Positions 12,642 to 39,008 of a stretch of DNA of 40,159 bases are shown here, piece after piece. The stretch is from a virus: the IMG/VR virus record IMGVR_UViG_3300035698_007623, positions 1 to 40,159 of that record; one strand, given 5' to 3'. Below the pieces are notes generated by a model that was not told the DNA's origin, did not search any database, and was given only the letters and a program-made list of their open reading frames with translations. Within the stretch, counting starts at the first letter, position 1; every line of letters begins with the position of its first letter. Both the position numbers and the translations under genes were made by a program.

Positions 12642-13781
12642 ATGGTAACAAAATTAACATATGGTTCAGGACTAGGAGAGGGATTAAGCAGTTTTGGGTC
12701 TTCTATAGCAGGAGCCTTAAAAGAACGAGCTAAAAACCAAAGAATACAAGAGATTATGAAGCCTTATCAACCAACTGTAGGAGAGGGAGAGCCTCCTAAT
12801 GAGGCAGCAACGGACGAGGCCCAGCCAGACACAATGTTGGGAGGAGTTCTTGGAGGAGTCCAAAAAGAAGTTACATCCGTAGAGGACCAGCTGTTTAATC
12901 AAAAAAATGAAGAAATACAGCATAAAAAAAGACAAGCCGCCGCTTTGCAAGCTGAAGGATATATGCCGCAAGCACAAATGATGATGCAAGAAGCTCACCA
13001 ACAAGAAACCTTTTTACAACAAGAGCGTTTACAGGAGAAGAATTTAAATCAAAAAGTTCAACTGCAAAAAGACAACCATGCCTTTAAGCAAAATGAACCA
13101 TACTTTGAAGATATGGAGAAAAAACGCACTGCATTAGAAAATAAAGAGTTAGCTATTAGGCAAATACAAAATGCCTTGTCAAAAGGCAATACAAACACAG
13201 TGAGAAACTTTTTAGCTGCTAGAATGCCAACTGAACAACAGGCAGCTTTTATTAGATCAGATAATGCTCAAGAATTACAAGATGCTATTAAGACATTTTT
13301 CTTAGAAGATTTGAAAGAGCTTCCAAAGGGTGGAAGATTAAATGTGGTATTAGAACAAAATATATTAGGAGCTTTACAATCACCTGGTAAATCAATGGCT
13401 AATAACCAAAAGGGGACTGAATATCAAATTTATAAAAATGATGTAGGTAAAAGGGAGTTGGAAGTATATGACAACTTGTACGATCAATATCTCAAAGCTG
13501 GAAGAGAACCACCTGCAAATCTGAAGAGACAAGTGGACAGAATTATCCAACCGTATGTATCAGGAAGAAAAAAAGAATTAGCGCAAACAATTTATGATAT
13601 AGATCATGGTAAATTAAAATCACCTCAAATGTTAAACATGCCACTTGCTAAAGCAGAAATTAAAGATACTCCTCCAAAACCTGGGTTTACATGGATTATG
13701 TCCCCCAAGGGACAGCCAGTTCAAGCCCCAAATAACGAATTAGATCAATGGTTAAATTCTGGGGGCAAGATAATAAAATGA
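12642..13781 (+). CDS. Internal virion / ejection protein (middle)
   Basis: This 379-residue protein begins at ATG 12642, chosen because GGGAGG lies nine bases upstream; the GTG at 12633 would precede the good site. It is largely helical and Gln/Glu/Lys-rich, with a long coiled-coil-like part (KKRQAAALQAEGYMPQAQ..., residues about 90-175) and a glycine-rich start (YGSGLGEGLSSFGSSIAGAL). The pattern fits DNA-ejection proteins. It overlaps the next gene by four bases (ATGA). Confidence 0.72.
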   Translation: MVTKLTYGSGLGEGLSSFGSSIAGALKERAKNQRIQEIMKPYQPTVGEGEPPNEAATDEAQPDTMLGGVLGGVQKEVTSVEDQLFNQKNEEIQHKKRQAAALQAEGYMPQAQMMMQEAHQQETFLQQERLQEKNLNQKVQLQKDNHAFKQNEPYFEDMEKKRTALENKELAIRQIQNALSKGNTNTVRNFLAARMPTEQQAAFIRSDNAQELQDAIKTFFLEDLKELPKGGRLNVVLEQNILGALQSPGKSMANNQKGTEYQIYKNDVGKRELEVYDNLYDQYLKAGREPPANLKRQVDRIIQPYVSGRKKELAQTIYDIDHGKLKSPQMLNMPLAKAEIKDTPPKPGFTWIMSPKGQPVQAPNNELDQWLNSGGKIIK

Positions 13782-16270
13782 GTACACAACTAGATTGGGA
13801 TTCTTTGGAAGGGCTAAATCCGAGTGGCCAAGCTGCGCCGCCGCAACAGCAAACAGCATCTAAACAAACACAGCAGCTAGACTGGGACTCTTTAGATAGT
13901 TTACCTAATTATGAAACTCGGGAGACTCAACAGCAAGAAGGTTTTCTTAAATCTACATCTAGAAATTTAATGCAACCAGTATTAGGTGCATTAGAGGTTA
14001 CAACGCCTGGCTTAATAACAGGAGGATGGCAACTATTAGGAAGTGGGGAAGCGTTAGCTGAGATGCAAGATTGGGAGTATGGAAATAAAGAAGCGGAACT
14101 AAGAAAGAGATTCCCTTCAGCACCTTGGACAGATAAGCCTGTTTTTAATAAAGAAAAATATATGGAAGCATTACAAGCTGCAAGTAGTACTATTCCAACA
14201 GTTGATAATATAGCTTCCTTTTTAGAAAAGAATACTGGTTTGCCATTAGAAGCGAGAACAAAGTGGAACAAACGATTAAGATTAGCTGGAAGTGCTGGAA
14301 AAATTAGACCTGGAGGAGTAGCTAAAAAGGCGACTGCTGGAGTTATCGCACCACTTGCTTCAGAAGGTTTACAAGCAATGGGTGTTCCAGAGGCAATAGC
14401 TAATCCAGTTTCATTAGGCATATCTACAGGAGTGCCGCTTCCAAAGGCTACTAAAGTAACAAAACCCTCAGGAATGCCAACTAGATGGTATGAAAGTTTA
14501 AAAAAAGACACCAAATTATCTCCTGAACAATATGGGAATGTTAAGGGAGCTGTTGAGAGTGATGTTAAAAAACTTACTACTGATCTAATTAAAAAAGAAA
14601 GTGAAACAGCAAGAATGTTAGCTGAAGATCCTTCATTCCCATCTAAGATTAATGATACATTCAAAGACGTTGAAAGAATATCTAAAAATATAACAGATAC
14701 AGTTCCAATGCAAGAAATTAAAACGAATTATATTAAGAAAGCAAATGAGAGGTTAAGAAACACTAAAGGTTTATCTAAGAATGAGTTTGAACAAGCATAT
14801 GTAAAAGAAGTAGGAGAAATAGCTAAGACCATGCCTAGTAAAGGCGAAGCTTCAATGGCTAAGTCAGTAGAACAATATCGTAAGAATAATGAAAGTTTTG
14901 GAGAGCTATATGAGCCTGGAAAGTCAGGAGCTAAAAACAGAGCTAAAAGAGAAGCATTATTAGACTATAATAGGACTATAGGAGATACATTTGAAACACA
15001 TCACCCCGATTCTGAATTTAATAAGTTATTCAAATATTCAAATAAAAAATATAGCGAATTAATGGATTTAGAGAATATTGATGGTTTCATGGGTAAAGTA
15101 TTTGGAGATAAGATTAATTATAAAGAGGCTAATAAGTTTTTTAAAGACAAGAGAACACAGAGATCATTTAAAAATATCCTTGGTAAAGAGGGCTACAAGG
15201 ATATGGAAGCTATAATGAAAGACTTCCTCCCTACTGAGAAGGCAATGTCTTTACTTAAAAAAGGTGAAGCCCTAGGCCTTATTGATATAATGAAGCTAGG
15301 TGGTAAATGGGTAATCAGTCCTTTGTGGAGCAAAGCATCAGCATTAAATAAAGGTGTAAAGATACTTAGAAATAAAATGCTAGCAACGCCTAAATTCAGA
15401 GTAAAATGGGAAAGCGTATTAAAAGATTTTAAAAAAGGAAACCTGAAAGAAGCTCAAGCTGGATTTAAAGAATTAGATGCTATAGAGAAGCAAACGTATG
15501 ATAAAGTGAAAGCTGTTTATCAGAAAATAGATAATACTAATCCTTCAATAGAAAATTCAAAGATTTTAGATCAGATACTAGAAATAAATCCTGAGTTTAT
15601 AAAAAGAAAAGGTTTAAAAAATGAACCTATGCGTCATTTAAGAAAGTCTGATGTATTTGGTACTAAAAAAACAGGATTTGATAGAGTAAGTTTAAGAGAA
15701 TGGGAAAAGTATTTAGATAAAGATAAATATTTTAGATATTATGGGGCTCATGAGCTCGGAGAAACACATTTAGGAAAAGTTGGTGATTTAATAAAAGATC
15801 CACGATTAAGAAAAGAATTAAAGGAAGTATTAGATGTGCCTGTTTATGTAAACCCAAAATTGCCTAGAGTGAGTTTTGGAAAAAACAATGCATTTCATAC
15901 TACTGATGGAAAGCTAATTCCTGAATTGTCTAAAATTGAAATTAGAAATGACTTATCCCCAGAGCAATTTCGCACAACGTTAGCTCATGAAGGATTACAT
16001 GGATTGCAAAACAAAAGAATAAATAAGAAAACAGGAAAGACAAGGACTTTTGAAAGATACGAAAAGGGATTAAAGGAGGCAAAAGCTTTAACAGCAGCCG
16101 AAAAAGCAGACCCAGAGTTTATGCATAAATTTTATTTAAAAAAATTAAATGAAGTCCAGGCTCGTAAATTTGATAGATGGGTGAGCAGAGATGTCAATAA
16201 ATATAGATCAACACTTGAAAAGACAAAGGTAGTAAAGCAATTACTAGAAGTACAAAAAAAGACTAAATAG
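13778..16270 (+). CDS. Large internal virion protein with HExxH metallopeptidase-like end
   Basis: This 830-residue protein is read from ATG 13778, which overlaps the previous stop as ATGA; an in-frame ATG at 13748 is a less likely start. Two LDWDSL motifs lie near residues 5-10 and 38-43. A hydrophobic, glycine-rich zone follows (about 60-240), then helical charged repeats. The C terminus contains TLAHEGLHGLQ, an HExxH zinc-ligand motif (His737, Glu738, His741), with Glu792 in NEVQAR as a possible third ligand. Such domains occur in large polyvalent ejected proteins. It may enter the host with the DNA and act as a protease, but the catalytic claim rests on the motif alone. Being last in the structural block fits an ejection protein. 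Confidence 0.75.
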   Translation: MSTQLDWDSLEGLNPSGQAAPPQQQTASKQTQQLDWDSLDSLPNYETRETQQQEGFLKSTSRNLMQPVLGALEVTTPGLITGGWQLLGSGEALAEMQDWEYGNKEAELRKRFPSAPWTDKPVFNKEKYMEALQAASSTIPTVDNIASFLEKNTGLPLEARTKWNKRLRLAGSAGKIRPGGVAKKATAGVIAPLASEGLQAMGVPEAIANPVSLGISTGVPLPKATKVTKPSGMPTRWYESLKKDTKLSPEQYGNVKGAVESDVKKLTTDLIKKESETARMLAEDPSFPSKINDTFKDVERISKNITDTVPMQEIKTNYIKKANERLRNTKGLSKNEFEQAYVKEVGEIAKTMPSKGEASMAKSVEQYRKNNESFGELYEPGKSGAKNRAKREALLDYNRTIGDTFETHHPDSEFNKLFKYSNKKYSELMDLENIDGFMGKVFGDKINYKEANKFFKDKRTQRSFKNILGKEGYKDMEAIMKDFLPTEKAMSLLKKGEALGLIDIMKLGGKWVISPLWSKASALNKGVKILRNKMLATPKFRVKWESVLKDFKKGNLKEAQAGFKELDAIEKQTYDKVKAVYQKIDNTNPSIENSKILDQILEINPEFIKRKGLKNEPMRHLRKSDVFGTKKTGFDRVSLREWEKYLDKDKYFRYYGAHELGETHLGKVGDLIKDPRLRKELKEVLDVPVYVNPKLPRVSFGKNNAFHTTDGKLIPELSKIEIRNDLSPEQFRTTLAHEGLHGLQNKRINKKTGKTRTFERYEKGLKEAKALTAAEKADPEFMHKFYLKKLNEVQARKFDRWVSRDVNKYRSTLEKTKVVKQLLEVQKKTK

Positions 16271-16402
16271 TTAATCATAGTTGATTATTTCTAAAGTTCC
16301 ATCTTCATGTTCAATTGTTCTCTGATATGGAAGACAAGGGGGTACAAATGTGTCTTCTTCAATATCTTTTAATATTTTATTTTCTTTATCATCAGTCTGC
16401 AT
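16271..16402 (-). CDS. Small acidic protein (43 aa)
   Basis: This 43-residue frame (MQTDDKENKILKDIEEDTF...) lies between the converging structural and accessory operons and continues the minus-strand gene chain. It overlaps the 24-residue gene upstream by 11 bases. The peptide is acidic with a VPPCLPYQ turn in the middle; no family is recognised. The ribosome-binding site is modest (GTGAG). It is supported mainly by filling the gap in a tightly packed operon. Confidence 0.45.
   Translation of the reverse strand: MQTDDKENKILKDIEEDTFVPPCLPYQRTIEHEDGTLEIINYD
16272..16287. terminator. Inverted repeat between convergent operons
   Basis: TAATCA (16272-16277), loop TAGT, and TGATTA (16282-16287) form a perfect 6-bp stem directly after the stop of the large ejection gene, followed by TTTCT on the plus strand. 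It lies where transcription from both sides converges. The AT-rich stem is weak, so this is a candidate only. Confidence 0.35.
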
Positions 16403-16466
16403 GCCACTCACATATCTCCCATATAATTATAAATAATAGTTTAAATGGTAAAAGTATAATTCCCAT
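16392..16466 (-). CDS. Tiny hydrophobic protein (24 aa)
   Basis: Just after the stop of the HTH/alpha-CTD gene, a strong GGAGGAGTGAG site precedes an ATG that opens a 24-codon frame. It reads MGIILLPFKLLFIIIWEICE and then WHAD. Almost the whole peptide is one membrane-spanning stretch. It overlaps the start of the 43-residue gene. A single-pass mini-membrane protein of unknown role is the only supportable description. Confidence 0.45.
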   Translation of the reverse strand: MGIILLPFKLLFIIIWEICEWHAD

Positions 16467-16467
16467 C

Positions 16468-16908
16468 TCACTCCTCCTTCAGCATATAGCCTAGACTTAC
16501 TAGTTTTTCTTCTATTTCTTCTATAGACTTTTTGCCTAAGTTTCTTGTTCTCATTAGTTTATTTTTTGTAAGTTTTGATAATTCCACTACTGTTTTAATA
16601 CCTACGTTGTGTAAAGCGTTGTATGTTCTAGTGGTAAATTCTAAATGTGCAAGAGACACCTCATTCAGTTTATTTACATAAGTTAAAATTTCTTTATCTA
16701 CTTTGACTATCTTACTATTATTTTCTGAGTGAGATTCCATCCACTCATCAAACAAATCTTCTCTTATGTAAACTCTCCTACCAATTTTTCTAATACTGGT
16801 AGCAAGGCCATTTTTCTTTCTATTAGTGACGAGTGCTCGCATTTGCCCCATACTAAAAGGATATTTATCGTCATTAACGATGTCTTTGATACATACATAT
16901 TTTTTCAC
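16468..16908 (-). CDS. HTH (excisionase-like) fused to RNA polymerase alpha C-terminal domain
   Basis: This 146-residue protein has two halves. Residues about 5-58 (IKDIVNDDKYPFSMGQMRALVTNRKKNGLATSIRKIGRRVYIREDLFDEWME) look like an AlpA/excisionase-type winged HTH. Residues about 84-143 match the RNA polymerase alpha-subunit C-terminal domain. The bacterial DNA-contact residues are preserved in pattern: Arg94 and Asn97 in the TTRTYNAL helix start, and Gly125-Lys126-Lys127-Ser128 in NLGKKSIEEI. Alpha-CTD normally binds UP elements and activators; fused to a site-specific HTH it could recruit or redirect host polymerase, or act as a directionality factor for the integrase three genes upstream. 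Its start overlaps the previous stop by one base. Confidence 0.85.
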   Translation of the reverse strand: MKKYVCIKDIVNDDKYPFSMGQMRALVTNRKKNGLATSIRKIGRRVYIREDLFDEWMESHSENNSKIVKVDKEILTYVNKLNEVSLAHLEFTTRTYNALHNVGIKTVVELSKLTKNKLMRTRNLGKKSIEEIEEKLVSLGYMLKEE

Positions 16909-17165
16909 TATATCGTCTCCTTCTCTTTCCGTTTTTCATTTGCTTCTTCCATGAAACATTTAGTAGCTTCTTTTCTTATTAGTTTTTTCATTATGCGCTT
17001 GTTTTGAAAAAGCCCACACAAGTCACCCAATAAGAAGCCACTGGTAGTACAAACCACACAATACATAATTGTGCTCACTGGTTGCTCATACCAAATAAAA
17101 GAAATCACACCATTAGCAAACAAACAAATACACAATATCAGTAATGTGATATAGTCTTTTTTCAT
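16908..17165 (-). CDS. Small two-pass membrane protein
   Basis: This 85-residue protein has two hydrophobic segments, TLLILCICLFANGVISFIWY (about 7-26) and TIMYCVVCTTSGFLLGDLCG (about 32-51). A highly charged C-terminal tail follows (NKRIMKKLIRKEATK...NEKRKEKETI). The basic tail predicts a cytoplasmic C terminus. It overlaps both neighbours by 1-4 bases, so it is cotranslated. There is no family assignment; a superinfection-exclusion or holin-like role is possible but not shown. Confidence 0.72.
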   Translation of the reverse strand: MKKDYITLLILCICLFANGVISFIWYEQPVSTIMYCVVCTTSGFLLGDLCGLFQNKRIMKKLIRKEATKCFMEEANEKRKEKETI

Positions 17166-17701
17166 ATTTTAAACCTATTTTTTATTACAGTCATCTTTAG
17201 CCAAGTATCATTTGATAAATTACTGGCCAATTTGCAAGCGTCTAAATGACCTTCAATGGCTTGTTCTTCAGTTGAATATCTTTCCATATAGTCAGTTAGC
17301 TCATCTTCCTTGTCATCATTATCATTAAATATCATTGTTTCAAAAATAAGAATAACATGTCCCTCCTCCTCAGTTGAAAAAGACCAGTTGTGGTCCGATC
17401 CTAACCAAACTGTAGACACTTTATATTCACCAAACCTATGGGCATCCACTATTTTATATTCATAGTCTTCAAAATAACACGACCATTCCCATAGACTAAT
17501 CGGTTTGCCTTGTCTATCATAATATGAATGTAAAGCGGGCAATCCAAATTTAGTCCCTCCTGCCCAGCTAGGGGAAAACTCATCCATTGCCTTTTTAGAT
17601 TTTTGTAAAAACTCTAATTCCTTCTTCTGTTTTTCTGAGAGCGTCTCATACGACATTGATTCTAGCTCTACTAATAACTTAGATTTATTATGTGATTTCA
17701 T
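17162..17701 (-). CDS. Conserved phage hypothetical protein (YDRQGKPI / WLGSDHNW type)
   Basis: This 179-residue protein has a helical charged N terminus (about 1-40). The core motifs HSYYDRQGKPISLWEWSCYFEDYEYKIV, KVSTVWLGSDHNW and LIFETMIF are followed by a YSTEEQAIEGH segment. I recognise this motif order from many unrelated phage genomes, where it is of unknown function. The Asp/His/Trp-rich motifs suggest an active site or metal site, but I cannot name a reaction. It overlaps the genes on both sides by four bases. Confidence 0.82.
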   Translation of the reverse strand: MKSHNKSKLLVELESMSYETLSEKQKKELEFLQKSKKAMDEFSPSWAGGTKFGLPALHSYYDRQGKPISLWEWSCYFEDYEYKIVDAHRFGEYKVSTVWLGSDHNWSFSTEEEGHVILIFETMIFNDNDDKEDELTDYMERYSTEEQAIEGHLDACKLASNLSNDTWLKMTVIKNRFKI

Positions 17702-17919
17702 TTTTTCCGCCTTTTATTCGAGTCTCTAAATATTTCTAAACAATGCCGTTTTAATGTATCAAACAAGCTTATGATTTGTTCTTCATTTTCCAACGTCAAA
17801 GCACTCATTGTTACTATATATGTAGATAAACCACACATTATATAATGTGAAGAATGGGTTTTTGATTGTTCATCTACAAAAGCGGCAATCGCATTTTTAA
17901 TCCCATCATGTTTATTCAT
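17698..17919 (-). CDS. Hypothetical small protein
   Basis: This 73-residue protein (MNKHDGIKNAIAAFVDEQSK..., ending SNKRRKK) is predicted to be mostly helical and basic at the C terminus. It starts inside the last codons of the recombinase gene (ATGA-type overlap). No domain is recognised. Its placement between the recombinase and accessory genes makes a lysogeny-related role possible but unsupported. Confidence 0.65.
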   Translation of the reverse strand: MNKHDGIKNAIAAFVDEQSKTHSSHYIMCGLSTYIVTMSALTLENEEQIISLFDTLKRHCLEIFRDSNKRRKK

Positions 17920-18902
17920 ATTAACACCAACTTTTTTGTATAATTATCTTCAGCACTACTTTTATCGTAGGCATAAATCATTTTAGATGACCTATGTCCA
18001 GTTACTTTCATTATTTCTGAATCAGGCACACCCTGTGTTTTAGCAAGAGTCACCCACGTTGCCCTTAAAACGTGTGGTGTTACTTTCTTAATCCCAGCAG
18101 CCGTAGAAGCCTTAAAAAATGAAAAATTAAGACGAGACCTGTGTAATTTCTGGCCTTGATTAGAAATAAATACAAGCGCATCTTCATTCCGCCGATCCTT
18201 GGTTAAGTGTAGATAGTCTTTTAACACGCTTAGAAAGGGCATAGGGAAGCTTATATACATCCAACGTAGAGTGCCACGTGCCTTGCTCTGAACGAAGCGT
18301 ATGATGCCTTTATCGAAGTCTATGCAATCTTCTGTCACTTTCAAAACTTCCGATATTCTTTTAGCCCCTTGAAGCATGCATTTAGCAATTAGTGAGTCTC
18401 TTAAATTTATCTTCTCTAAGCTAGCAATAAATTTGTGCCATTCGTATAAAGTTAAGGCCTCAGTAGCACACTTGTCCCTAATCTGAAAAAAGGTTTTATT
18501 AGACGCTAGGTTAGATGGAGTCGCTCTTCTAAACCATCCATAGGAAATCCTGCTTAGATAAGAGGTTAGGCTTATATAACAAGAGGCTCTGCATTGTCTC
18601 GTTCCTTCGCCCCATTCTTTAACTTTTTTGATATTATCTATATTTATTTCGTGAGGTATTTCATTAAACGCTTCAACCGTTGAATCTGGCACAAATCCCC
18701 TGACCATCAAATCCATAATATTATATGAGTAATTCCTCTGCGTTTCACCATGTAAATTGCTGAGCCACTCTCTTATAGCTGTTCTAAGGGGCGAATTAGC
18801 TAAATCCGATATAAAGGTTGCCCTAGACTGTTTTAGGTCTTGTATGGCAGCAAAGAGATCTAACTGGTGGGGTTCGGTCTCATTCTTTATTAATACGCTC
18901 AT
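17916..18902 (-). CDS. Tyrosine recombinase (integrase), chlamydial-plasmid pGP7/8-like
   Basis: This 328-residue site-specific recombinase has a core-binding domain at about 30-145 and a catalytic domain at about 150-325. The catalytic set is complete: Arg182 (GAKRISEVL), Lys207 (SKARGT), His277 and Arg280 (PHVLRATW), His303 (TGHRSS) and Tyr312 (AYDKSS). Stretches such as EGTRQCRASCYISLT, MLQGAKRISEVL, TPHVLRATWVT and IMKVTGHRSSKMIYAYDKSS resemble, from memory, the pGP7-D/pGP8-D integrases of the chlamydial plasmid more than lambda-type integrases. It would integrate the phage or resolve multimers. AAGGA precedes ATG 18902, directly after the upstream stop. No attachment site was identified. 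Confidence 0.93.
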   Translation of the reverse strand: MSVLIKNETEPHQLDLFAAIQDLKQSRATFISDLANSPLRTAIREWLSNLHGETQRNYSYNIMDLMVRGFVPDSTVEAFNEIPHEINIDNIKKVKEWGEGTRQCRASCYISLTSYLSRISYGWFRRATPSNLASNKTFFQIRDKCATEALTLYEWHKFIASLEKINLRDSLIAKCMLQGAKRISEVLKVTEDCIDFDKGIIRFVQSKARGTLRWMYISFPMPFLSVLKDYLHLTKDRRNEDALVFISNQGQKLHRSRLNFSFFKASTAAGIKKVTPHVLRATWVTLAKTQGVPDSEIMKVTGHRSSKMIYAYDKSSAEDNYTKKLVLI

Positions 18903-19193
18903 CTATTCCTTCTCTGAAGAGGGTGGGGTTCGGTCGATTCCATTCGATTGATCCATAAACTTAGTCAATGTTGCGAAAAAGAACTCATTTAGCCATTCAT
19001 TAAATTCTTTTCCTTTTGGAATAGATTTGTACATTTTTAAATTGATCCATATGTTTTTAGCTACCATCAAGAATAACCAATTGAAATCCTTTTCCGACAA
19101 AGTTAAATCAGGGAAGTTCTTGGCGTCCTCTAAAAACTTTTTAAAGTCATAGTAAACTTTGCCATTGTAAAAACCCTTTATCTTATCCTTCAC
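18903..19193 (-). CDS. Hypothetical protein, GTG start
   Basis: This 96-residue protein has aromatic and charged helices (FYNGKVYYDFKKFLEDAKNF, FNWLFLMVAKNIWINLKMY, FNEWLNEFFFATLTKFM). It starts with GTG overlapping the previous stop (TTGTGA). The start is preceded by GGAGGACAG, one of three near-identical junction cassettes in this operon. No family is recognised. It ends immediately before the recombinase start. Confidence 0.7.
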   Translation of the reverse strand: MKDKIKGFYNGKVYYDFKKFLEDAKNFPDLTLSEKDFNWLFLMVAKNIWINLKMYKSIPKGKEFNEWLNEFFFATLTKFMDQSNGIDRTPPSSEKE

Positions 19194-19675
19194 AAACTGT
19201 CCTCCATCAACATAGATTTTCTTTTTAAAAAAGAAGCTTGTTCATCAAATATATCTGCATTAGTTGGAACAATTTCTTTTAGTTTATTTATAACATTAAA
19301 AGAAGATGGATCTATTTTTCCACTTTCGTATTCTTTAATTAAAACTTTAGCTTCTCTTGTAAATAGAATTTTTAACTCTTCAGCACAAGTTTCTACATCT
19401 ATATATTTTGAATAACTCTTATCAATGTCTCCATTAGCGCGTTTTTTAAGCAAGAGAAACACCTTTAGCGCATTTTCAAAAATATCAATCATACATGAAC
19501 CAATTGAAACTTTAACAAATAGTTGTAATAAATCTAATCGTATATAAGCTCCATTTTTTTCTTTGCTTTTCGTTGAACATAATTTTATTATTTCTTCAAA
19601 TATAAAGTTTAAAGGTTCTGTCATAGTTTTATCTAATTTATCCATCTTTATAATTAATTCTTCTGCATAATTCAT
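19190..19675 (-). CDS. Hypothetical helical protein
   Basis: This 161-residue, strongly helical protein starts MNYAEELIIKMDKLDKTMTE. I chose ATG 19675 because it overlaps the upstream stop as ATGA and has GGAGGACAG six bases before it; an upstream frame adds seven residues that merely read through that site. It ends with ...LMEDSL, the peptide encoded by the next junction cassette. No domain is recognised. Confidence 0.72.
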   Translation of the reverse strand: MNYAEELIIKMDKLDKTMTEPLNFIFEEIIKLCSTKSKEKNGAYIRLDLLQLFVKVSIGSCMIDIFENALKVFLLLKKRANGDIDKSYSKYIDVETCAEELKILFTREAKVLIKEYESGKIDPSSFNVINKLKEIVPTNADIFDEQASFLKRKSMLMEDSL

Positions 19676-19992
19676 AAACTGTCCTCCATAGCACACATGG
19701 TTTTATTTATTGCTTCTTTCATTTCTTTACGCATTTCAATATATTTCTTTACGTCTTCACATAGCTCAAAATCGCCCTTAAATAAAACTATACATGTTCC
19801 AGTGACAATTTTTTCTCCAGTTAACGGATAATCAATATTCATTCTATCATATGCAGTCATAGCCGTTTCCATTAGCACCAGATGATCTGGTTGATCGTTG
19901 GGTTCTAGCCATATGCCGCAATCACATTTACCATCATTTATCTTGCTTTTGCATTTATCACATATCCCATCATTACGACTTGTCCATTTCAT
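19672..19992 (-). CDS. Small zinc-ribbon protein
   Basis: This 106-residue protein starts MKWTSRNDGICDKCKSKIND. A CxxC...CDC arrangement near residues 11-25 (CDKC, CDCG) suggests a zinc ribbon. The remainder is helical, ending TMCAMEDSL, whose codons double as the ribosome-binding site of the following gene. The start at 19992 follows GGAGGACAG and a short 12-codon frame (MNKTMCAMEDSL) that is a copy of this protein's own C-terminal codons. Its function is unknown. Confidence 0.7.
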   Translation of the reverse strand: MKWTSRNDGICDKCKSKINDGKCDCGIWLEPNDQPDHLVLMETAMTAYDRMNIDYPLTGEKIVTGTCIVLFKGDFELCEDVKKYIEMRKEMKEAINKTMCAMEDSL

Positions 19993-20023
19993 AAACTGTC
20001 CTCCATAGCACACATGGTTTTAT

Positions 20024-20293
20024 TCATAAGTTTTCATTCTTACAATCCATCTCTTTCAAAAGGACTGCAACCCTTTCTTCTAAAAGTGGATGAAGTACTA
20101 TTGGTGTTTTATCTATAATCCTGTTTATTTTTTCCAAAAGATATTCTTTATGTATGACCTCTCCTTCATGGTGCAGAACTAAACAAAACAACTTTATCAG
20201 TTCCTCATCAACAGATTTAAACATAGAACTCCATCCTTGGGGAAATCTAATTTCAGAGTTAGCTTCATCAATAGTACCAAGGAGATCCTCCAT
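20024..20293 (-). CDS. Hypothetical small helical protein
   Basis: This 89-residue frame begins MEDLLGTIDEANSEIRF. An internal ATG at 20224 (MFKSVDEELIKL) has the better site, AAGGATGGAG, four bases before it and would give 66 residues. The sequence is helical with a VLHHEGEVIHKEYLLEKINRIID stretch. No family is recognised. It belongs to the same minus-strand operon as the recombinase. Confidence 0.6.
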   Translation of the reverse strand: MEDLLGTIDEANSEIRFPQGWSSMFKSVDEELIKLFCLVLHHEGEVIHKEYLLEKINRIIDKTPIVLHPLLEERVAVLLKEMDCKNENL

Positions 20294-20324
20294 TGCTTCA
20301 TTTTTTTTGAGTTTTGTCTGTCAT

Positions 20325-20573
20325 CTATGCCTCTGCTTTTTTTTCTTTTTCTTCTTTTTCTCTTTTTAAGTTTTTCAGCATACCAGCTATAGACTGCAAG
20401 CATCCATGGTTAGTCATTCCCCATTCTAAATCTTCATTAAATTCATATTTAGCAACTTTAGCTAGACCAAGGGGTTTAAATATTATATCTAGGCATTCTT
20501 CTATCATCTCGACTAATTCCTCTTCTTTTTCAAGGCTCTCCGTTAATAATCGTTTTAAATCTCTACTTGTCAT
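20325..20573 (-). CDS. Hypothetical acidic-helical protein
   Basis: This 82-residue protein is read from ATG 20573 (MTSRDLKRLLTESLEKEEEL), chosen over the longer frame because AAGGAG lies eight bases upstream. The middle has IFKPLGLAKVAKYEFNEDLEWGM, and the C terminus is Lys/Glu-repetitive (KNLKREKEEKEKKAEA), probably a charged coiled coil. It is the second gene of the operon after the ribbon-helix-helix gene. Function is unknown. Confidence 0.65.
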   Translation of the reverse strand: MTSRDLKRLLTESLEKEEELVEMIEECLDIIFKPLGLAKVAKYEFNEDLEWGMTNHGCLQSIAGMLKNLKREKEEKEKKAEA

Positions 20574-20632
20574 GTTAATTCTCCTTTTATATTCAATAAC
20601 GTGCAATTGTAGTTAAATTTTAAAGCTGTTTC

Positions 20633-20935: not shown

Positions 20936-23545
20936 ATGACTAAAAAAATTTATAAAGCCTATTGTTCGGAATTACCTTTTATTGCAGTTCCGCCAATAGC
21001 ACAAGAATATCCAAGAGCTCCTTTGGCTTCTGATAGGAACTTTTCTATTGGATTTCCATGGGTATACAAACCGACAGCAGATACATCAAGTATGTATAAT
21101 TTTGGTGGGCTTGATTCTAGCGGCGACGCTATCTGGATGATTGCAACTCCTGGAGCATCCGATGTAGACCAAATGACAGGTGATGGCGGAGGAGCAATAT
21201 CTCCTACGGCGGGCGTAATGATACTGGCGGGTGGAACTAACATTACAACAGCAGGAACAGCAGGGCCAGGAACGATTACATTTAACATGGATGCAGCAAT
21301 AGTTTTAGCTACTTCAGTAACAGCACCATTCTATACAGCAGCAGCAGCAGATGCAGTCTTAGTGGCTGGCGGCGCTAACGATGTTGTGGTACGACTAGGT
21401 GACAATGCTGGTGCAACATTTTTCAGAGTTCAAGATAGCGATTCAGCAGATGTATATACTATAGATTCAGATGGAGCTCATACAGCTTTTGCAGGATTAA
21501 CAGTAACAGGTGCATTCACACAAACGGCAGGTATTGTAAATATCGGTGCTGACGCAGCGGCAAATGCAGTTAATATAGCCACTGGAGCAGCAGCCAAAGT
21601 TGCAATAATCGGCTCAGTAAATGGAGCCTCTTCTTTAGGACTATTGGCTGGAACAGGAAATTTCACACTAGAAGGCAACGCAGCAACTACATATGCAATT
21701 TCAAATACTGGTGTAAACACAGGACAAGTTGACATAGCTGGCGGAACTGGAGCACGTACGATCAATATCGGTGGTGGTGGAACTGGGGCCAAGACAATTG
21801 GAATCGGTGCAGCAGCCTCAGCAGATTTAATTACGATCGGAACAAATGATGGTGCCAGTGCGTTAACATTGGTTTGCGGAACTGGAAACTTTAGTTTAGA
21901 TGGTGCCGCAGGTTCTGTTTATGCAGTTGGAGCAACAACAACAACAGGAACAATTACTATTGGAGGTGCTTCTCAAACAGGTATAATCACACTAGGTGAT
22001 TCCGATGGAATTAACATTGTTCAAATTGGTTCTGGAGAAGGAGCTACTACAGTTAATATAGCTGGTGGAGCAACAGCAGCAAAAGCTGTGAATATAGGTA
22101 CAGGAGCGGTAGCGAACGTGATATCGGTCGGTAGTGCATCAGCAGGTGCAATTACAGTTGATACAGCAGCAGGTTTCTCTATAGATGGAGTAACAGCTTC
22201 TAACATTACCGTAACAGGTGCTGGAGTTGATCTATCACTGCAAGGTGTTGGCGGAGCAGTAAATATAACATCTACTCAAACAGAGAATGATGCGATCTAC
22301 ATCGAAGCCTCAGCGGCAAATGGTGGAGTTCAGATAAATGCTGGTACTGGTGGTATCAGAATGGGTGACGAAGCGGATTGTACTGGAATTACTATTGGTA
22401 ACGCAGCCCCTGGAGCAACTCGTACAATCACTATGGGTGGCGGAACAGTTATAGTAGCTGCCGTAACAGATACAATTTCTATTGCAGGTGGTGGAGCTAC
22501 TACAAATGCTAACAGTATTAAAACGCTTAATTTAAATACTGGTGGTGTAGCTGTAGGAGAAGTATTAACACATATTGGAACAGGAGCAGTAACTTCTGGT
22601 ACTCATACTGTTAATATTCAAACTGGGAATGTAACAGCAGGAACAGTTGCTCTTAATATAGCAACAGGAACTGGAACTCAGGCCTTAAACATAGGTACTG
22701 GAGCTGGCCCTAAAACAGTAACTCTAGGTTCTACTAATACAACTTCTGCAACAGTAATCCAGGCAGGAACAGCAGGACTAACTATTACTGGAACAGTTCA
22801 GGATGTGACTGCTAATTTCGCAAGAATAACTGGCGAAAATATAACGTTCAGACAATCACCTTTGACTATAGGTGCATTAGATACAGGAGCTGCTGCAACA
22901 GGCGCTACTGGCGACATTAACCTATTGTCGTTCAATGGTGGCATCATCATGGAACAGTTCATATTAGGTGCAGGTCAAACAATCATAAAACCTGTGATGA
23001 CAGCTACTGGATTGTTAATTTCTGGTGATGAAGTTACAACAGAAGGATTTGAATACAACTGGGGAGCAGCTAGAGCAAACTCAATGCATAGCTTCACAAT
23101 TGGAACCTCAGCAGCCTTCTACCTAGAATGGAGCTTCAGAGCAGACGATATATCTGGTCTTGAGCCTTGTTATTGTGGATTCAGAAGAACACAAGCTAAC
23201 CAAGCAGCAGGTGCAATTTTAACATATACTGACTTTGTTGGATATGGACCGAATGATGGCATAGCTCCTGGGGATGCGGCAATTGAGACGCAATTAAATA
23301 CAGGTGGAGCAATCCAAACAGATACTAATGATGCTTGGGCAGATGCAGCAACGCATACACTTAGAATCAATGTAAGCGCAGCAGGTGTTGTAACGTTCCT
23401 ATTTGATGGTGGAGCGCCAACAGTAACACAAGCATATACATTTGATAATGGCGATGTTGTTCATCCTTATTTCAGGCATGAATTCAACGCTGCATTACCA
23501 GATGCAATTGAATGGATTTCCATGGAATGTGGTTTTCAAGCTTAG
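20936..23545 (+). CDS. Long repetitive tail fibre / adhesin
   Basis: This 869-residue protein has a unique N-terminal region (about 1-100, with IAQEYPRAPLASDRNFSIGFPWVY) that may bind the tail. About 550 residues of short Ala/Gly/Thr/Ile/Val repeats follow, with units like VNIGTGAAAKVAIIGSVNG and ITIGGASQTGIITLGDSDG, indicating a beta-helical or beta-prism trimeric shaft. The C-terminal domain (about 640-869; FEYNWGAARANSMHSFTIGTSAAFYLEWSF..., CYCGFRRTQ) is non-repetitive and lectin-like, a candidate receptor-binding head. It stands away from the other virion genes behind its own promoter, and a strong terminator follows, suggesting separate control or recent acquisition. Confidence 0.82.
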   Translation: MTKKIYKAYCSELPFIAVPPIAQEYPRAPLASDRNFSIGFPWVYKPTADTSSMYNFGGLDSSGDAIWMIATPGASDVDQMTGDGGGAISPTAGVMILAGGTNITTAGTAGPGTITFNMDAAIVLATSVTAPFYTAAAADAVLVAGGANDVVVRLGDNAGATFFRVQDSDSADVYTIDSDGAHTAFAGLTVTGAFTQTAGIVNIGADAAANAVNIATGAAAKVAIIGSVNGASSLGLLAGTGNFTLEGNAATTYAISNTGVNTGQVDIAGGTGARTINIGGGGTGAKTIGIGAAASADLITIGTNDGASALTLVCGTGNFSLDGAAGSVYAVGATTTTGTITIGGASQTGIITLGDSDGINIVQIGSGEGATTVNIAGGATAAKAVNIGTGAVANVISVGSASAGAITVDTAAGFSIDGVTASNITVTGAGVDLSLQGVGGAVNITSTQTENDAIYIEASAANGGVQINAGTGGIRMGDEADCTGITIGNAAPGATRTITMGGGTVIVAAVTDTISIAGGGATTNANSIKTLNLNTGGVAVGEVLTHIGTGAVTSGTHTVNIQTGNVTAGTVALNIATGTGTQALNIGTGAGPKTVTLGSTNTTSATVIQAGTAGLTITGTVQDVTANFARITGENITFRQSPLTIGALDTGAAATGATGDINLLSFNGGIIMEQFILGAGQTIIKPVMTATGLLISGDEVTTEGFEYNWGAARANSMHSFTIGTSAAFYLEWSFRADDISGLEPCYCGFRRTQANQAAGAILTYTDFVGYGPNDGIAPGDAAIETQLNTGGAIQTDTNDAWADAATHTLRINVSAAGVVTFLFDGGAPTVTQAYTFDNGDVVHPYFRHEFNAALPDAIEWISMECGFQA

Positions 23546-23559
23546 TTGATATAAACATT

Positions 23560-23592
23560 AAGGGGTGAGCCAATTTTTGGCAACCCCTTTTT
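23560..23592 (+). terminator. Strong intrinsic terminator after first fibre gene
   Basis: AAGGGGT (23560-23566) pairs with ACCCCTT (23583-23589), and an inner stem GCCAA/TTGGC (23569-23573 with 23577-23581) closes a TTT loop. TTT then follows. It lies 14 bases after the fibre stop. Confidence 0.8.
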
Positions 23593-23609
23593 AAAAAAGG
23601 AAGACAAAC

Positions 23610-23936
23610 ATGACACTAATAACAGAGTTCGACGAAAAAGAATTTAATGCCTCTGCTCTTACTGGAGCATACCAAGCCTTTGACTCTATAGTTCCATATC
23701 CATGTTATGAAGCGATTATATGTAATGAGTCAGATGTACCAGTGTATATATCCACTAATGGCACAGACGATATGATCAGAGTAGGTGCTGGAATGATAGT
23801 GCCAATAAGTGGTCTTTCTAGACATACTACAATACCTGATGGCGAGTATTTATTTGCCGCAGGAACTCAATTATATATTCAATATAAAAGCGCAGGCACT
23901 GGATTTATAATAGCTAACTTATTAATGACGAGGTAA
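23610..23936 (+). CDS. Small fibre-associated beta protein
   Basis: This 108-residue, beta-rich protein (FNASALTGAYQAFDSIVPYPCYEAIICNESDVPVYISTNGTDD...) has a fold impression like small phage capsid-bound or fibre-associated proteins. AAGGAAG precedes the ATG. It lies between two giant fibre genes and ends two bases before the next gene. No named family is recognised; an accessory fibre or chaperone-like role is inferred from context. Confidence 0.72.
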   Translation: MTLITEFDEKEFNASALTGAYQAFDSIVPYPCYEAIICNESDVPVYISTNGTDDMIRVGAGMIVPISGLSRHTTIPDGEYLFAAGTQLYIQYKSAGTGFIIANLLMTR

Positions 23937-23938
23937 AG

Positions 23939-24232
23939 ATGTCCAGCGGAATAAACAGGCCATTTAAATATGGCGCAAACGATAGACGAGAATTTATCGT
24001 TCAAAACTCAGAAGTAGAATATCGAGCAGTTAACGATGCCAACGGAAATCCGACTCATCTTGCAAGAGCCAAACTTGGTGTTGCTAATGGAGATGAAAAA
24101 TGGCAGATCAGAAAAATAACATATGATGCAAATCAGGGCATAACATTAGTTGAATGGCCACAAAGTGGTGGAATTCCTTCAGCAGATTTTATCTTCTCCT
24201 GGACTGATTATTTAACATATGTTTTTTCATAG
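23939..24232 (+). CDS. Small fibre-associated protein
   Basis: This 97-residue protein (MSSGINRPFKYGANDRREFIVQNSEVEYRAVNDANGNPTHLARAKLG begins its first half, followed by KWQIRKITYDANQGITLVEWP) is predicted to be a compact beta domain. GACGAGG lies before the ATG. A similar layout of small proteins between fibres is common; the function is unknown. Confidence 0.72.
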   Translation: MSSGINRPFKYGANDRREFIVQNSEVEYRAVNDANGNPTHLARAKLGVANGDEKWQIRKITYDANQGITLVEWPQSGGIPSADFIFSWTDYLTYVFS

Positions 24233-24280
24233 AGTTGATAATCCCAAACACGATATATTTCTCCAAAAAAGGAGATCTAT

Positions 24281-24325
24281 ATGGAAAAAGAATTATATGT
24301 TTATGAAGAAAGACTAAACCCTTAA
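24281..24325 (+). CDS. Possible 14-residue leader peptide
   Basis: AAAAAAGGAG stands at a good distance before an ATG that encodes MEKELYVYEERLNP and a stop. The stop is followed at once by AAGGAG and the start of the 1050-residue fibre. Its only obvious role would be translational coupling into the fibre gene. Whether it is translated is uncertain. Confidence 0.3.
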   Translation: MEKELYVYEERLNP

Positions 24326-24335
24326 GGAGATATCA

Positions 24336-27300
24336 ATGGCATACCGTTACAATGCAATCACTGGTGAGCTAGATTTTGTAGATACCACTACTGCTACAAC
24401 TGGAGTCACACAAATAGACGCTGATGCTGGTTCAGCATTGCCAGTTGCTGGAATTATAAACTTAAATGGTACAGCAGCACAAGGTATATCGTCAAGTGGA
24501 GCTGGTAATACTGTTACTTTAACTATAGCAGATGCCACAGAAACACAGAAAGGCGTATCTGAATTAGCAACAGATTTAGAATCTATCGCAGGAACAGATA
24601 CTAGTAGACCTATTGTTCCGTCATCCTTAACAGCTAAACTTGGTGTTCAAACAGCAAATTCTATACCATACGGGCTTGGAACAACAGCGGCACTTGGGTG
24701 GTCAACAGCTTTAACTAATGGTCAGATTATAATAGGAGCTACTGGGGCAATACCTACACCAGGAAGTTTATTAAGTGCTGGTGGAACGGTAATAATTACT
24801 TCTGGAGCTAATTCAATTAATTTAGAAGCAGGGGGAGCAGTACCAACAGCATTTGTAACTGACGCAGGAACTGCAACGCCAAATTTAAATATTCTTAATG
24901 TATTAGGTGGCAACAATATAAGCACAGTTGGTGCAGCAAATAATCTAACCGTTAATCTAACAGGTGGAGCGGCGGGCGAATTATTGATTGGAACTGGGGC
25001 AAATCCGACATTCGGCAGTACTGCTTACGGAGACTTCGGTTTTTCCAATCTAACAGCAGGAACTCCAAGGCTGTTTACTGTAAACAACACAGACGTAAAC
25101 GCCGCTTCATCAGCAAATATTATGGTATCAGTACCGCCGTTGGGAGCTGATGGATATTTTAGTTGGGAAATTCAGGGCACTAGATTTTATGCAATGGGAC
25201 CTGATAATTCCGTAGCTACCGATCCATTAAAAATTACAAACTCATCAGACCCAAGCAGCGGAACAGCATTACTTACATTGAAAACTGGTGGAGACATTAC
25301 CTTTAATGAAGCATATGAATTTCCAGTAGCCGACGGAACCGCTAATTATGTCTTTGCTACAGATGGGGCAGGAAACGTTGATTGGGGTAGTGTAGCAGAC
25401 CTAGATGTTGATAGAGATAATATATATTATGTTGGTAAACATGGTGCTGACGCTAATTCTGGGAAGACACCAAGTCTAGCTAAACTCACAATTCAAGCCG
25501 CGGTTACGATAGCGGTAGCAGGAGACTCAATCGTAGTTTATCCTGGAACATATACAGAAACGATTACTCATGTAGCTAACAACGTAACTGTGTTAGCAGA
25601 AGGCAAACCTAGCAATTGTATAATAACTCAAGCTGATGCAAATGTAATTGATTTTAATACTAGACAAGGGATTCTTTATAAGAATTTTGGGATCAATTGC
25701 ACAGCAGCAACTACAGCCATAAATATAATCGAAGGAACTACAGGCACATGTGTAATTAGAGATTGTCAAACTAGTATGATATCAGCAGCAGCTATTGTTG
25801 CAGTAGTACAACCAGCAATCGGAGAAATTAGTGGAGCTGGACATCTTTCAGTAAGATTTGGAATACACACATATGCACATACAGGTGCTTGTGGGGGGAC
25901 GGCAAATAAAGCAGCTTTTAGAGTTGGAACTGGGGGCAGTATTCATCTTGATTATATTCATGAGATAAATATTACTAATAGCGGAACTGCATTAGTTACA
26001 GCTACAGGTATAGATACAAATACAACTGGTGTTTTTGAGATCCATGATTGCCATATTGAAGTAATAGACCCAGACGCAGTAATCGTTGCAGGACTTGTTT
26101 CTATTGGTGGAACAGGAATAACCAACGAATTTTTTAGAAATGAGGTCCATGTAACAGCAACAAATAATGCTGGATTCGGGTTTTGGTCTGCTGATACAGC
26201 CTCAGTATCACGCTTTTTCTATAACCACATTCATGTAGTAGATACAGCAGGAACTAGTAATTCCTTCTTAGTTGGTAGTACAGCAACAGTAGTCTCAGAG
26301 TTTGATGATATTGTTGCAGCAGATGGCATTAGCTTAACAGCAGGCGGAACATTTACTTGTACATCTTCAGAAGCAGATGGCGGCCTAACTTGCAGAGGCA
26401 GAGAAGCTGGGGGAACAGTTCAGGCTGCTATTATGAATATGGACAACACAAACGTTGCCTCACATGCAGTTCTCGATTTAGTCACAGGCGGAGCGAGTGG
26501 AGGCGACCCTTATGTTCATTTGAACACTGGGGTAACGGAATTTTCGTTCGGGATAGACAATACTTCAACTACTGATATATTAAAAATTACAGACGGAGCA
26601 AGCCCGAGTGCTGGCACTGAATATTGGAAGCTTTCCACAACGGGCGTTACTGCAATTAATGAACTTGTGCAAATAGTATCTCAAACTTTTGATAGTGCGG
26701 GGACAACATTCAGTGAAGTTAAAAATCAAAATGTTGCAGCAGGCTCACATGCATGTTTTGTTACAACAACCGAAACTGGCGGTGGAGATGGTTTTATAAA
26801 CTTTGGTGTCATTGATACTGGAGTGAATAAACCGCATCAATATGCCTTTGGAATAGACAATTCAGACTCGGATAGTTTAAAGATTTCTCATACGGCAGGC
26901 GGAGCGACTAGTAGTTTAAGCTCCCCATCTGACGGAACAATACTTTTAAAAATAACAACGGCTGGAGATTCGACGTTTGTTGGTGATATACTTCCTAGTG
27001 GCGATAGAGCTAAAGACCTTGGTTCTACTACAAATGCCTTTGATAATCTTTACATTGATGGAATTAGTTTCGACGATGGAACAAATACTTTAGATGATTA
27101 CGCTCATGGAACATGGACTCCTCAAATCCAGGGATCAACAGGTGGAACGCCAACATACGGGACACAATCAGGGTATTATTGGAAGATTGGAGACATGGTT
27201 ACACTGCAATATGTTGTGTCAATAACAAATAAAGGAACATTAAGTGGTGTAGCTAGGATTGGAAACTTTCCGGTTGCTGCGAATGCGTCTAATGCTGGGG

Positions 27301-27488
27301 GTGGTTGTTTTGTTTATGGGATTAACACAACATATTCTGGGGGAGGAACAGTTCTAAAGATACAGGCAACAGCGTCACAAACATACGGTAGTATGCAAGC
27401 TACAACTGGAGGAGCATTTGCAAATCAAGCTGTAACGGACTTAACGAATACATCTTCATTAAGTGGAGTATTAACATATAGGGCATAA
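24336..27488 (+). CDS. Giant tail fibre/spike with pectate-lyase-like beta-helix
   Basis: This 1050-residue protein has several zones. Residues about 1-360 are Ala/Gly/Thr-rich strands like those of other long fibres. From about 365 (DVDRDNIYYVGKHGADANSGKTPSLAKLTIQAAVTIAVAGDSIVVYPGTYTETI) it shows the entrance of a right-handed parallel beta-helix of the pectate-lyase class, which continues to about 680 and may bind or cleave surface glycans. The C terminus carries an SGDRAKDLGSTTNAFDNLYIDG trimerisation-like motif. A beta domain ends it (GTWTPQIQGSTGGTPTYGTQSGYYWKIGDMVTLQYVV) of a type common at fibre tips. No catalytic residues can be assigned. Confidence 0.85.
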   Translation: MAYRYNAITGELDFVDTTTATTGVTQIDADAGSALPVAGIINLNGTAAQGISSSGAGNTVTLTIADATETQKGVSELATDLESIAGTDTSRPIVPSSLTAKLGVQTANSIPYGLGTTAALGWSTALTNGQIIIGATGAIPTPGSLLSAGGTVIITSGANSINLEAGGAVPTAFVTDAGTATPNLNILNVLGGNNISTVGAANNLTVNLTGGAAGELLIGTGANPTFGSTAYGDFGFSNLTAGTPRLFTVNNTDVNAASSANIMVSVPPLGADGYFSWEIQGTRFYAMGPDNSVATDPLKITNSSDPSSGTALLTLKTGGDITFNEAYEFPVADGTANYVFATDGAGNVDWGSVADLDVDRDNIYYVGKHGADANSGKTPSLAKLTIQAAVTIAVAGDSIVVYPGTYTETITHVANNVTVLAEGKPSNCIITQADANVIDFNTRQGILYKNFGINCTAATTAINIIEGTTGTCVIRDCQTSMISAAAIVAVVQPAIGEISGAGHLSVRFGIHTYAHTGACGGTANKAAFRVGTGGSIHLDYIHEINITNSGTALVTATGIDTNTTGVFEIHDCHIEVIDPDAVIVAGLVSIGGTGITNEFFRNEVHVTATNNAGFGFWSADTASVSRFFYNHIHVVDTAGTSNSFLVGSTATVVSEFDDIVAADGISLTAGGTFTCTSSEADGGLTCRGREAGGTVQAAIMNMDNTNVASHAVLDLVTGGASGGDPYVHLNTGVTEFSFGIDNTSTTDILKITDGASPSAGTEYWKLSTTGVTAINELVQIVSQTFDSAGTTFSEVKNQNVAAGSHACFVTTTETGGGDGFINFGVIDTGVNKPHQYAFGIDNSDSDSLKISHTAGGATSSLSSPSDGTILLKITTAGDSTFVGDILPSGDRAKDLGSTTNAFDNLYIDGISFDDGTNTLDDYAHGTWTPQIQGSTGGTPTYGTQSGYYWKIGDMVTLQYVVSITNKGTLSGVARIGNFPVAANASNAGGGCFVYGINTTYSGGGTVLKIQATASQTYGSMQATTGGAFANQAVTDLTNTSSLSGVLTYRA

Positions 27489-27716: not shown

Positions 27717-28619
27717 TTATTGGCGTCTTAGAGTCCATCTAGTTGTTGGTTTTTTTCTAAAATCGCGCAGATCCACATTTAAAAGCTCTGGAATCGAATT
27801 ATAGTCTACTAGACCAAGGGAGGTACTGCGGACATAACGAAACTCCCCACAACATGAGCTTCTATTGCCTGACAGCGATTTAAGCAATTCCGACAGCTCA
27901 GCTTCTTCCTTACCTAAATTTTTCTTCTGTTGCTTGATATCATACAAGCGCAGTGCCTTTTCATGCCAATCTTTTCCTTGTTCTAGAAAATCATTTTCAG
28001 TTAATGGCGGTTCTTTGAGAGCTTCAACATAATCCCAAAATTCGCTAGTCTTGCCCTCTAACATTTTAATATATTCGTCGTCTCTCTCTACTTTTACTAT
28101 GATCCCCTCTCCTTTATGAAAAGAAAAGTAGTCAACATATGGCAGCTCTGTTACCATCGCTTGCATTTGTACTTGTGGATAATACTTAGCGGGAACCTTA
28201 CCTTCTTTGGCCAAAATATGATCTTCAAGTTTACAATTTTTTATCTCTACTGCGTGACTTTCTGTGATATTTAGCCCATCCAAGGAAACCATTAAGTAGG
28301 GATATTTTTTATTCTTAACACATACTGGCTCAAATAGATCGCCAACCATTTCTTGGTATGCTTGTCTAGCTGGTTCTTCCATTGCCTTGCCGTATCTAGT
28401 AGCAGCGTTGTCACAATCTATTTTGTCAATTCCTAGCTTCTCTTTCCATAGTAGGTTCGGTGTTTTAATTCTTCCGTCTGTAGTCTTCCACTTGGAGTCT
28501 CCAGTCAGTATACTAGCATCACTAGCACCAATATGTTCTTTTCTAAACGCCAACCATTCAGCGTCATTATCAAAGTAATACTTCTCAATATTAGGGTTTA
28601 TGCCTTTTACCATTTTCAT
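27717..28619 (-). CDS. YqaJ-type recombination exonuclease
   Basis: This 300-residue protein has the lambda-exonuclease/YqaJ fold signatures. These are IGASDASILTG (30-40), GKAMEEPARQAY (77-88), the catalytic triad region with Asp114 (VSLDGL) and Glu125-x-Lys127 (VEIKN), and YYPQVQMQAM (146-155). It would resect double-strand ends 5' to 3' and pass single strands to the RecT protein encoded immediately upstream. Start ATG overlaps the RecT stop (TAATG) and GAGGAGG stands eight bases upstream, so the pair is translationally coupled, as in lambda Red and RecET. Confidence 0.93.
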   Translation of the reverse strand: MKMVKGINPNIEKYYFDNDAEWLAFRKEHIGASDASILTGDSKWKTTDGRIKTPNLLWKEKLGIDKIDCDNAATRYGKAMEEPARQAYQEMVGDLFEPVCVKNKKYPYLMVSLDGLNITESHAVEIKNCKLEDHILAKEGKVPAKYYPQVQMQAMVTELPYVDYFSFHKGEGIIVKVERDDEYIKMLEGKTSEFWDYVEALKEPPLTENDFLEQGKDWHEKALRLYDIKQQKKNLGKEEAELSELLKSLSGNRSSCCGEFRYVRSTSLGLVDYNSIPELLNVDLRDFRKKPTTRWTLRRQ

Positions 28620-30788: not shown

Positions 30789-30809
30789 ATGTCAAGCAAT
30801 AATAATGAT
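30724..30809 (+). repeat. 43-bp tandem duplication over the replication gene start
   Basis: Two adjacent 43-base copies (30724-30766 and 30767-30809) differ at a single C/T. Each carries an ATGAGG ribosome-binding site and an ATGTCAAGCAATAATAATGA start. Only the second start (30789) leads into the long frame; the first yields an 18-codon peptide that ends inside the second copy. A partial third copy begins at 30709. Confidence 0.85.
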
Positions 30810-38992: not shown

Positions 38993-39008
38993 AAACAAGT
39001 GAGTACAG

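Follow-up and report, generated by a model that had tools for sequence, protein, structure and literature searches.

A tailed phage genome with links to Chlamydiota carries an integrase of the chlamydial plasmid Pgp7/8 family

We analysed a virus record of 40,159 nucleotides (the window, meaning the whole of this stretch) and found an integrase gene of the Pgp7/8 family on the genome of a tailed phage. Taken as a whole, we judge it likely that the window is a complete, podovirus-like tailed dsDNA phage of Chlamydiota, with a genuine Pgp7/8 recombinase that integrates at a tRNA gene. Pgp7/8 was described only on chlamydial plasmids and chromosomes, with one early gain from a phage inferred (Kostlbacher et al. 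2021, PMC7846284), whereas here the gene lies outside this usual home, on a virus record that also encodes a portal, a capsid protein and a terminase.

The integrase and its cassette

The integrase region contains the following features:
18902 to 17916, minus strand: integrase gene, 328 aa with an ATG start, tyrosine recombinase of the Pgp7/8 family
16468 to 16908, minus strand: HTH/alpha-CTD protein, 146 aa, with HTH_17 (under the Pfam cut-off) and an RNA polymerase alpha C-terminal-like domain
18903 to 20606, minus strand: small genes of unknown function upstream of the integrase and on its strand, an AT-rich cassette with inverted skew

The plus strand across 17916-18902 has no open frame. 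The minus-strand protein has a single Pfam domain, Phage_integrase (PF00589, E 1.3e-21), which holds the R-K-H-R-H-Y set of tyrosine recombinases. All the catalytic residues (R182, K207, H277, R280, H303, and Y312) are present in an intact active site and do not vary among the 18 aligned members of the family. The predicted structure (pLDDT 84, pTM 0.58) is similar to XerA, XerH, and the integron and lambda integrases. Judging from the secondary structure of the model, there would be no separate N-terminal domain of the lambda-Int type beyond the poorly predicted residues 1-11 and one long helix.

The AT-rich minus-strand cassette is inserted between plus-strand structural genes. The HTH/alpha-CTD gene directly follows the integrase in the viral contigs L204 and L002, and it follows serine resolvase/HNH genes in G634, G635, and G636; the 146-aa protein is probably a regulator of the recombinase module. 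Besides, a repeat of about 40 nt (GTGTGCTATGGAGGACAGTTTATG, minus strand) stands at 19189-19228, 19671-19710, and 19988-20027, each time at a gene start and each time encoding the leader MCYGGQFM. Gene starts in L204 and G635 carry it too, and it is possibly a duplicated translation start or a reinitiation signal.

Membership of the Pgp7/8 family

The initial annotation had likened the integrase to the chlamydial plasmid proteins pGP7/pGP8, and homology searches and the tree confirmed this likeness. The three catalytic-region peptides on which it drew (EGTRQCRASCYISLT, MLQGAKRISEVL, and IMKVTGHRSSKMIYAYDKSS) are each found verbatim in the minus-strand protein. The matches to chlamydial plasmid integrases were full-length, with a similarity far above chance. 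Using tblastn against 72,556 plasmids, we retrieved the integrases of Simkania pSn (39.6% identity over 328 aa, E 2e-59), Waddlia pWc (42.8%, E 2e-62), Criblamydia plasmid 1 (42.9%, E 1e-61), and a Rhabdochlamydia plasmid (35%). Together, the chlamydial plasmid matches presented 35-43% identity with 88-100% of the protein aligned (E 1e-46 to 1e-62). The top non-chlamydial match in the same plasmid set scored 67 bits, and the top match among 50,697 phage records scored 57 bits and covered part of the protein. More than 60 places in 234 Chlamydiota genomes exceeded 100 bits; the best match in 348 genomes of another phylum, used as control, reached 45 bits, except for a misfiled chlamydial plasmid in G004 (described below). 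Outside Chlamydiota, identity was below 34% throughout.

The closest matches were three related phage contigs, at 51-74% identity, and two Chlamydiota chromosome contigs (L003 and L004), at 60%. The genome-contig matches were three: these two chromosome contigs and a 7.6-kb contig filed as Clostridia (44%). The latter, from a Clostridia MAG (L005, CALXAO010000198.1), carries ParA, UPF0137, DnaB, and both Pgp7- and Pgp8-like integrases, and is a chlamydial plasmid misbinned in a public genome; a wider host range on the basis of this match was rejected.

With Pgp7 and Pgp8 of the Chlamydiaceae plasmids, pWc, pSn, and Criblamydia plasmid 1, the window's integrase shares full-length homology, the same catalytic residues, and the conserved C-terminal VTGHxSSKM(I/V)xAYDKS. 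Unlike these plasmid proteins, it lies on a tailed-phage genome and falls in a separate sub-clade with phages and two integrated chromosomal elements. We regard its membership of the Pgp7/8 family as virtually certain.

We built a maximum-likelihood tree of 66 rows with ten outside integrases as outgroup. The Pgp7/8 family, chlamydial and phage rows alike, split from the ten outside integrases with 100/97 support, and the window lay inside it. Its integrase paired with viral contig L204 (74% identity, support 100/100), within a 99/99 group whose other members are from the phage contigs L002 and L205 and, as chromosomal integrases, from L003 and L004. Phage rows were scattered across the family, and well-supported branches forced at least five label changes. 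A single clade of all phage rows was rejected (AU p 1e-54), and so was a grouping of the window's set with the integrases of other phages (AU p 1.8e-78); for the four nearest phage rows, a single origin was not rejected (p 0.29).

The outcome that the initial annotation had set against its own proposal, an integrase placed among phages of another phylum and merely distant to pGP7/8, does not agree with the position within Pgp7/8 or with the AU rejection, and an origin of the integrase in another phylum was rejected on both counts. Gene exchange between phage and plasmid lineage, offered there as an alternative to a new kind of chlamydial phage, is supported alongside it. Since the phage enzyme belongs to a chlamydial plasmid and chromosome family, phages and plasmids of Chlamydia-like bacteria share parts. 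Because the outgroup branches are very long, the tree does not tell which way the gene moved. The phage carriers and multiple exchanges modify the picture of a family confined to chlamydial plasmids and chromosomes after one early gain (PMC7846284).

The phage genome

The main phage features of the window are:
1 to 127, identical to 40033-40159: terminal direct repeat of 127 nt, circular assembly
1384 to 3489, plus strand: portal, P22-type (PF16510, E 5e-74), the main host-linking marker
4846 to 5787, plus strand: major capsid protein (PF25209; phrog_1357, E 2e-43)
27717 to 28619, minus strand: YqaJ-type exonuclease
28619 to 29380, minus strand: RecT-type annealing protein
36851 to 37318, plus strand: probable small terminase (TerS), HTH
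38038 to 38124: four identical 22-nt direct repeats, iteron-like, minus-strand unit CCCTAAACGTTTGCCCTAATAA
38170 to 38265: three identical 32-nt direct repeats, next to the 22-nt array and tRNA-Thr
38313 to 38383, plus strand: tRNA-Thr(TGT), present in several related phages
39003 to 40159, plus strand: large terminase (TerL), running through the terminal repeat into 1-116 (N-part), with its C-part at 1080-1199
About 117 to 1079: intein in the large terminase (Intein_splicing, 4e-10)

Given the terminal direct repeat, the window is probably a complete, circularly assembled genome. Portal, major capsid, and large terminase, the last identified by phrog_30251 and by homology in relatives, mark it as a tailed phage (Caudoviricetes, P22-like portal group). 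The P22-type portal is the feature from which a short-tailed podovirus morphology is read, and it supports the earlier description of the phage as podovirus-like. The P22/Bcep22-type podoviruses (BcepIL02, Itty13, and PEp14) have the same portal family, but their portals are 21-24% identical to that of the window, their hosts are Proteobacteria, and we found no Pgp7/8-type integrase in them. The window also encodes RusA, and a weak ParB_N match lies beside TerS.

Several other observations concern the phage genes. Within the terminase intein, a 233-aa HNH endonuclease ORF (323-1024, HNH_3 3e-14) lies in another frame with an overlap of about 700 nt, and the relatives L019, L030, L032, L087, and L092 have matches to both the intein and this ORF. 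The capsid gene is in pieces, with gaps of up to about 1.1 kb, in L012, L073, L101, G072:C368, G095:C388, and G634, suggesting introns or inteins in the capsid genes of these relatives. At 30682-30804, a 43-nt start region (ending ATGTCAAGCAATAATA) is repeated three times in tandem ahead of the HTH_36 gene at 30789. Finally, an 840-aa protein of the virion region (13748-16270), which has no Pfam match, carries a zinc-protease-like TLAHEGLHGLQ near its C terminus.

Other phages with Pgp7/8 integrases

An alignment-based scan of IMG/VR retrieved ten loci with this integrase type. In L204 and L002, the same integrase type stands beside the same phage genes as in the window, with which both contigs have tail genes in common. 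L205 and L206 carry portals 37-40% identical to the window's together with different terminases, and L209 has a portal of another family (PF06381). The DUF1064-methylase-TerS-TerL cassette of L209 is 84-87% identical to Criblamydia sequanensis plasmid 1, where a Pgp7/8 integrase lies a few genes from phage terminase genes; terminase and portal type of that plasmid cassette are unlike the window's. L210 combines a putative Rep with three 32-nt repeats, ParA, a Pgp7/8 integrase, TerS, and TerL, and by its gene content looks like a phage-plasmid. Thus, Pgp7/8 integrases occur in at least three packaging types.

A tyrosine integrase scored above the cut-off in just one of 26 large relatives, and it was of another type. 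In G635, an integrase-like ORF (L202, G635:C1:29004-29330; 28% identity to the window's integrase) adjoins a ParB-like gene and lacks the HxxR and tyrosine parts; it is a possible decayed second recombinase.

Iteron-like repeats

In a DNA search of Chlamydiota, G179 turned out to have arrays that match the 22-nt array of the window in both the 16-nt core (TAAACGTTTGCCCTAA) and the period of 22 nt. On both G179 array contigs, a DnaB-type helicase gene and a putative initiator gene stand next to each other in tandem, which is the Pgp1-Pgp2 arrangement; the initiator is assigned by position only, and neither protein is recognised by Pfam. Pgp2 is reported to be an iteron-binding initiator whose gene shares an operon with that of the helicase Pgp1 (PMC11895440). 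The Chlamydia plasmids compared also carry 22-nt repeats, about four of them, with a different sequence. The shared core, the exact period, and the place beside replication genes led us to reject a telomere-like chance match, and the core in common with G179 makes the repeats further evidence for a chlamydial host.

The only other IMG/VR contig with two 22-nt copies was phage L270; its terminase shares 66% identity with the one in the G162 chromosomal remnant described below. In the related phages examined, we did not find the 22-nt array upstream of tRNA-Thr. The three 32-nt repeats of L210, beside its putative replication gene, are unlike the window's 32-nt repeats in sequence. The window has tandem iteron-like repeats (4 x 22 nt), as expected of an iteron plasmid or phage-plasmid, and no recognisable Rep or ParA gene; the putative Rep proteins of G179 and L210 had no tblastn match in it. 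The repeats hint that the phage may use, or interfere with, plasmid replication.

Host

Portal relatives were present in 11 of the 234 Chlamydiota genomes, at up to 981 bits, and 398 genomes of the control phylum gave weak fragments of at most 30 bits. Counting these fragments as absent, the Fisher p was 1.5e-5, which is approximate since the genomes do not count as independent of one another. A 36-kb contig of a Chlamydiota MAG bin (G168 C1) is syntenic with most of the window: capsid, portal, and the gene at 3701-4072 are 81, 61, and 75% identical, respectively, and RecT, YqaJ, RusA, ParB-like, and TerS genes are also there. More distant relatives in Chlamydiota bins (G228 and G147) have terminal repeats and therefore look like complete phages.

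The strongest host link is the 125-kb contig C1 of G162, since the MAG bins of the other contigs may err. It runs from recA, glucokinase, and other bacterial genes through a phage remnant to a thrS-ParA-UPF0137 cluster. In the remnant, the N-terminus of a portal (63% identity to that of the window) is accompanied by part of a YqaJ gene, a terminase, and an IS transposase. UPF0137, the family that includes the CT583/plasmid-gp6 proteins, is encoded at a distance of about 10 kb from the portal fragment; it was absent from all 14 control genomes. The terminase of the remnant is of the type of phage contigs L205 and L270, not of the window's, so the remnant derives from a mosaic relative rather than from this phage itself. 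G160 contains another short remnant of a portal.

Relatives of the phage are thus integrated in, or assembled together with, Chlamydiota genomes. The earlier proposal of a tailed phage of Chlamydiota gains support from portal, capsid, and terminase relatives, including the chromosomal remnant, and on sequence evidence the host is very probably a member of this phylum. A phage of another bacterium could have acquired a chlamydial integrase, e.g. inside a shared amoeba, and MAG binning is fallible. However, it is not only the integrase but also the structural genes that track Chlamydiota, a portal fragment sits within a chlamydial chromosome contig, the control phylum gave nothing comparable, and the window has repeats in common with a Chlamydiota genome; this reading is strongly disfavoured and we consider it improbable. 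A chimeric assembly, joining a chlamydial plasmid gene to an unrelated phage, might be suspected in a single metagenome record, but it is refuted by the arrangement in L204 and L002, which come from two different samples, and we rejected it as having next to no probability.

Integration and its alternatives

The closest cellular relatives of the integrase are in two Chlamydiota MAGs (L003, JAUIEV010000001; L004, CAMGYI010000001), at 60% identity and in the same 99/99 sub-clade. The L003 integrase starts about 280 nt past a tRNA-Leu(TAA), and the last 25 nt of this tRNA recur (24/25) 12.6 and 14.7 kb beyond. The L004 integrase lies in a segment of 17.1 kb with a 31-nt direct repeat at its boundaries, and this repeat coincides with the 3' end of tRNA-Met(CAT). 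These elements of about 13-17 kb look plasmid-derived and have no other gene in common with the window in the stretches compared. Their tRNA boundaries suggest that members of the sub-clade use the 3' ends of tRNA genes as integration sites, and the phage enzyme would do likewise.

An attP was searched for in several ways. The window has no tRNA T-arm motif and no copy of the tRNA-Leu 3' end. DNA of 16265-17930 gave weak, scattered matches in the 234 Chlamydiota genomes, and tRNA 3' ends compared with the window gave chance matches of 9-17 nt among the matches listed.

We propose that the integrase recombines a phage site with the 3' end of a host tRNA gene. Following the standard tyrosine-recombinase mechanism, Y312 would cut the DNA with the assistance of R182, K207, H277, R280, and H303. 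With integration at a host tRNA gene, the phage would be temperate. The enzyme would have been drawn from a pool of mobile genes common to chlamydial plasmids, integrated elements, and phages. We infer an active enzyme, a tRNA gene as its target, and the formation of lysogens; as far as sequence comparison can tell, integration into a tRNA gene is the function we favour, with some reserve.

The main and serious rival is plasmid-style dimer resolution: the prophage would persist as a plasmid-like circle (a phage-plasmid) that does not integrate, the recombinase would resolve its multimers, and the 22-nt repeats would act as iterons in replication. Multimer resolution or DNA inversion is the usual role of small serine resolvases, and one occupies the same slot in the close relatives G634, G635, and G636, upstream of the same HTH/alpha-CTD gene, which is what makes this rival a serious one. 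In its favour are also the match in core and period to the repeats beside DnaB and putative Rep genes in Chlamydiota G179, the union of Pgp7/8 integrase, ParA, putative Rep with repeats, and terminase in L210, and the window's lack of a recognisable attP. Moreover, Pgp7/8 is mostly a plasmid protein (PMC7846284). On the other side, the closest chromosomal relatives of the integrase are in tRNA-bounded integrated elements, and no Rep homologue was found in the window, for which reason the plasmid-type initiator of the iterons would possibly come from a resident chlamydial plasmid. We give multimer resolution a minor share of the probability, as an explanation that is possible and less likely than integration. 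The recombinase could also invert or diversify the adjoining tail genes (20936-27488): the cassette adjoins two long repetitive tail-like genes, and the small serine recombinases of relatives are similar to resolvases and invertases. However, we found no pair of inverted repeats on either side of the tail genes, and the enzyme's closest relatives are, again, integrases of tRNA-bounded elements, which leaves tail-gene inversion very improbable.

Significance

To our knowledge, the characterised Chlamydia phages are small ssDNA microviruses. These chlamydiamicroviruses, which infect Chlamydia, belong to a different virus realm, and no genes in common with the window are expected. Our literature search found no paper on tailed phages of Chlamydiota; one candidate names Chlamydiota just in a list of phyla. 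New here are tailed phages with Pgp7/8 integrases, in at least three unrelated packaging types, whose structural genes, together with a chromosomal remnant, tie them to Chlamydiota.

Exchange between plasmids and phages now becomes directly testable. Tentatively, and as a speculation that we hold to be rather unlikely as a whole, tailed phages and phage-plasmids may form a standing pool from which chlamydial plasmids, those of the pathogens included, took Pgp7/8 more than once and to which they gave it back, and phage iterons without an initiator of their own may borrow from, or interfere with, the replication of the resident plasmid. Finally, dsDNA phages emerge as a candidate vehicle of gene transfer in a group of bacteria in which genetic manipulation is difficult.
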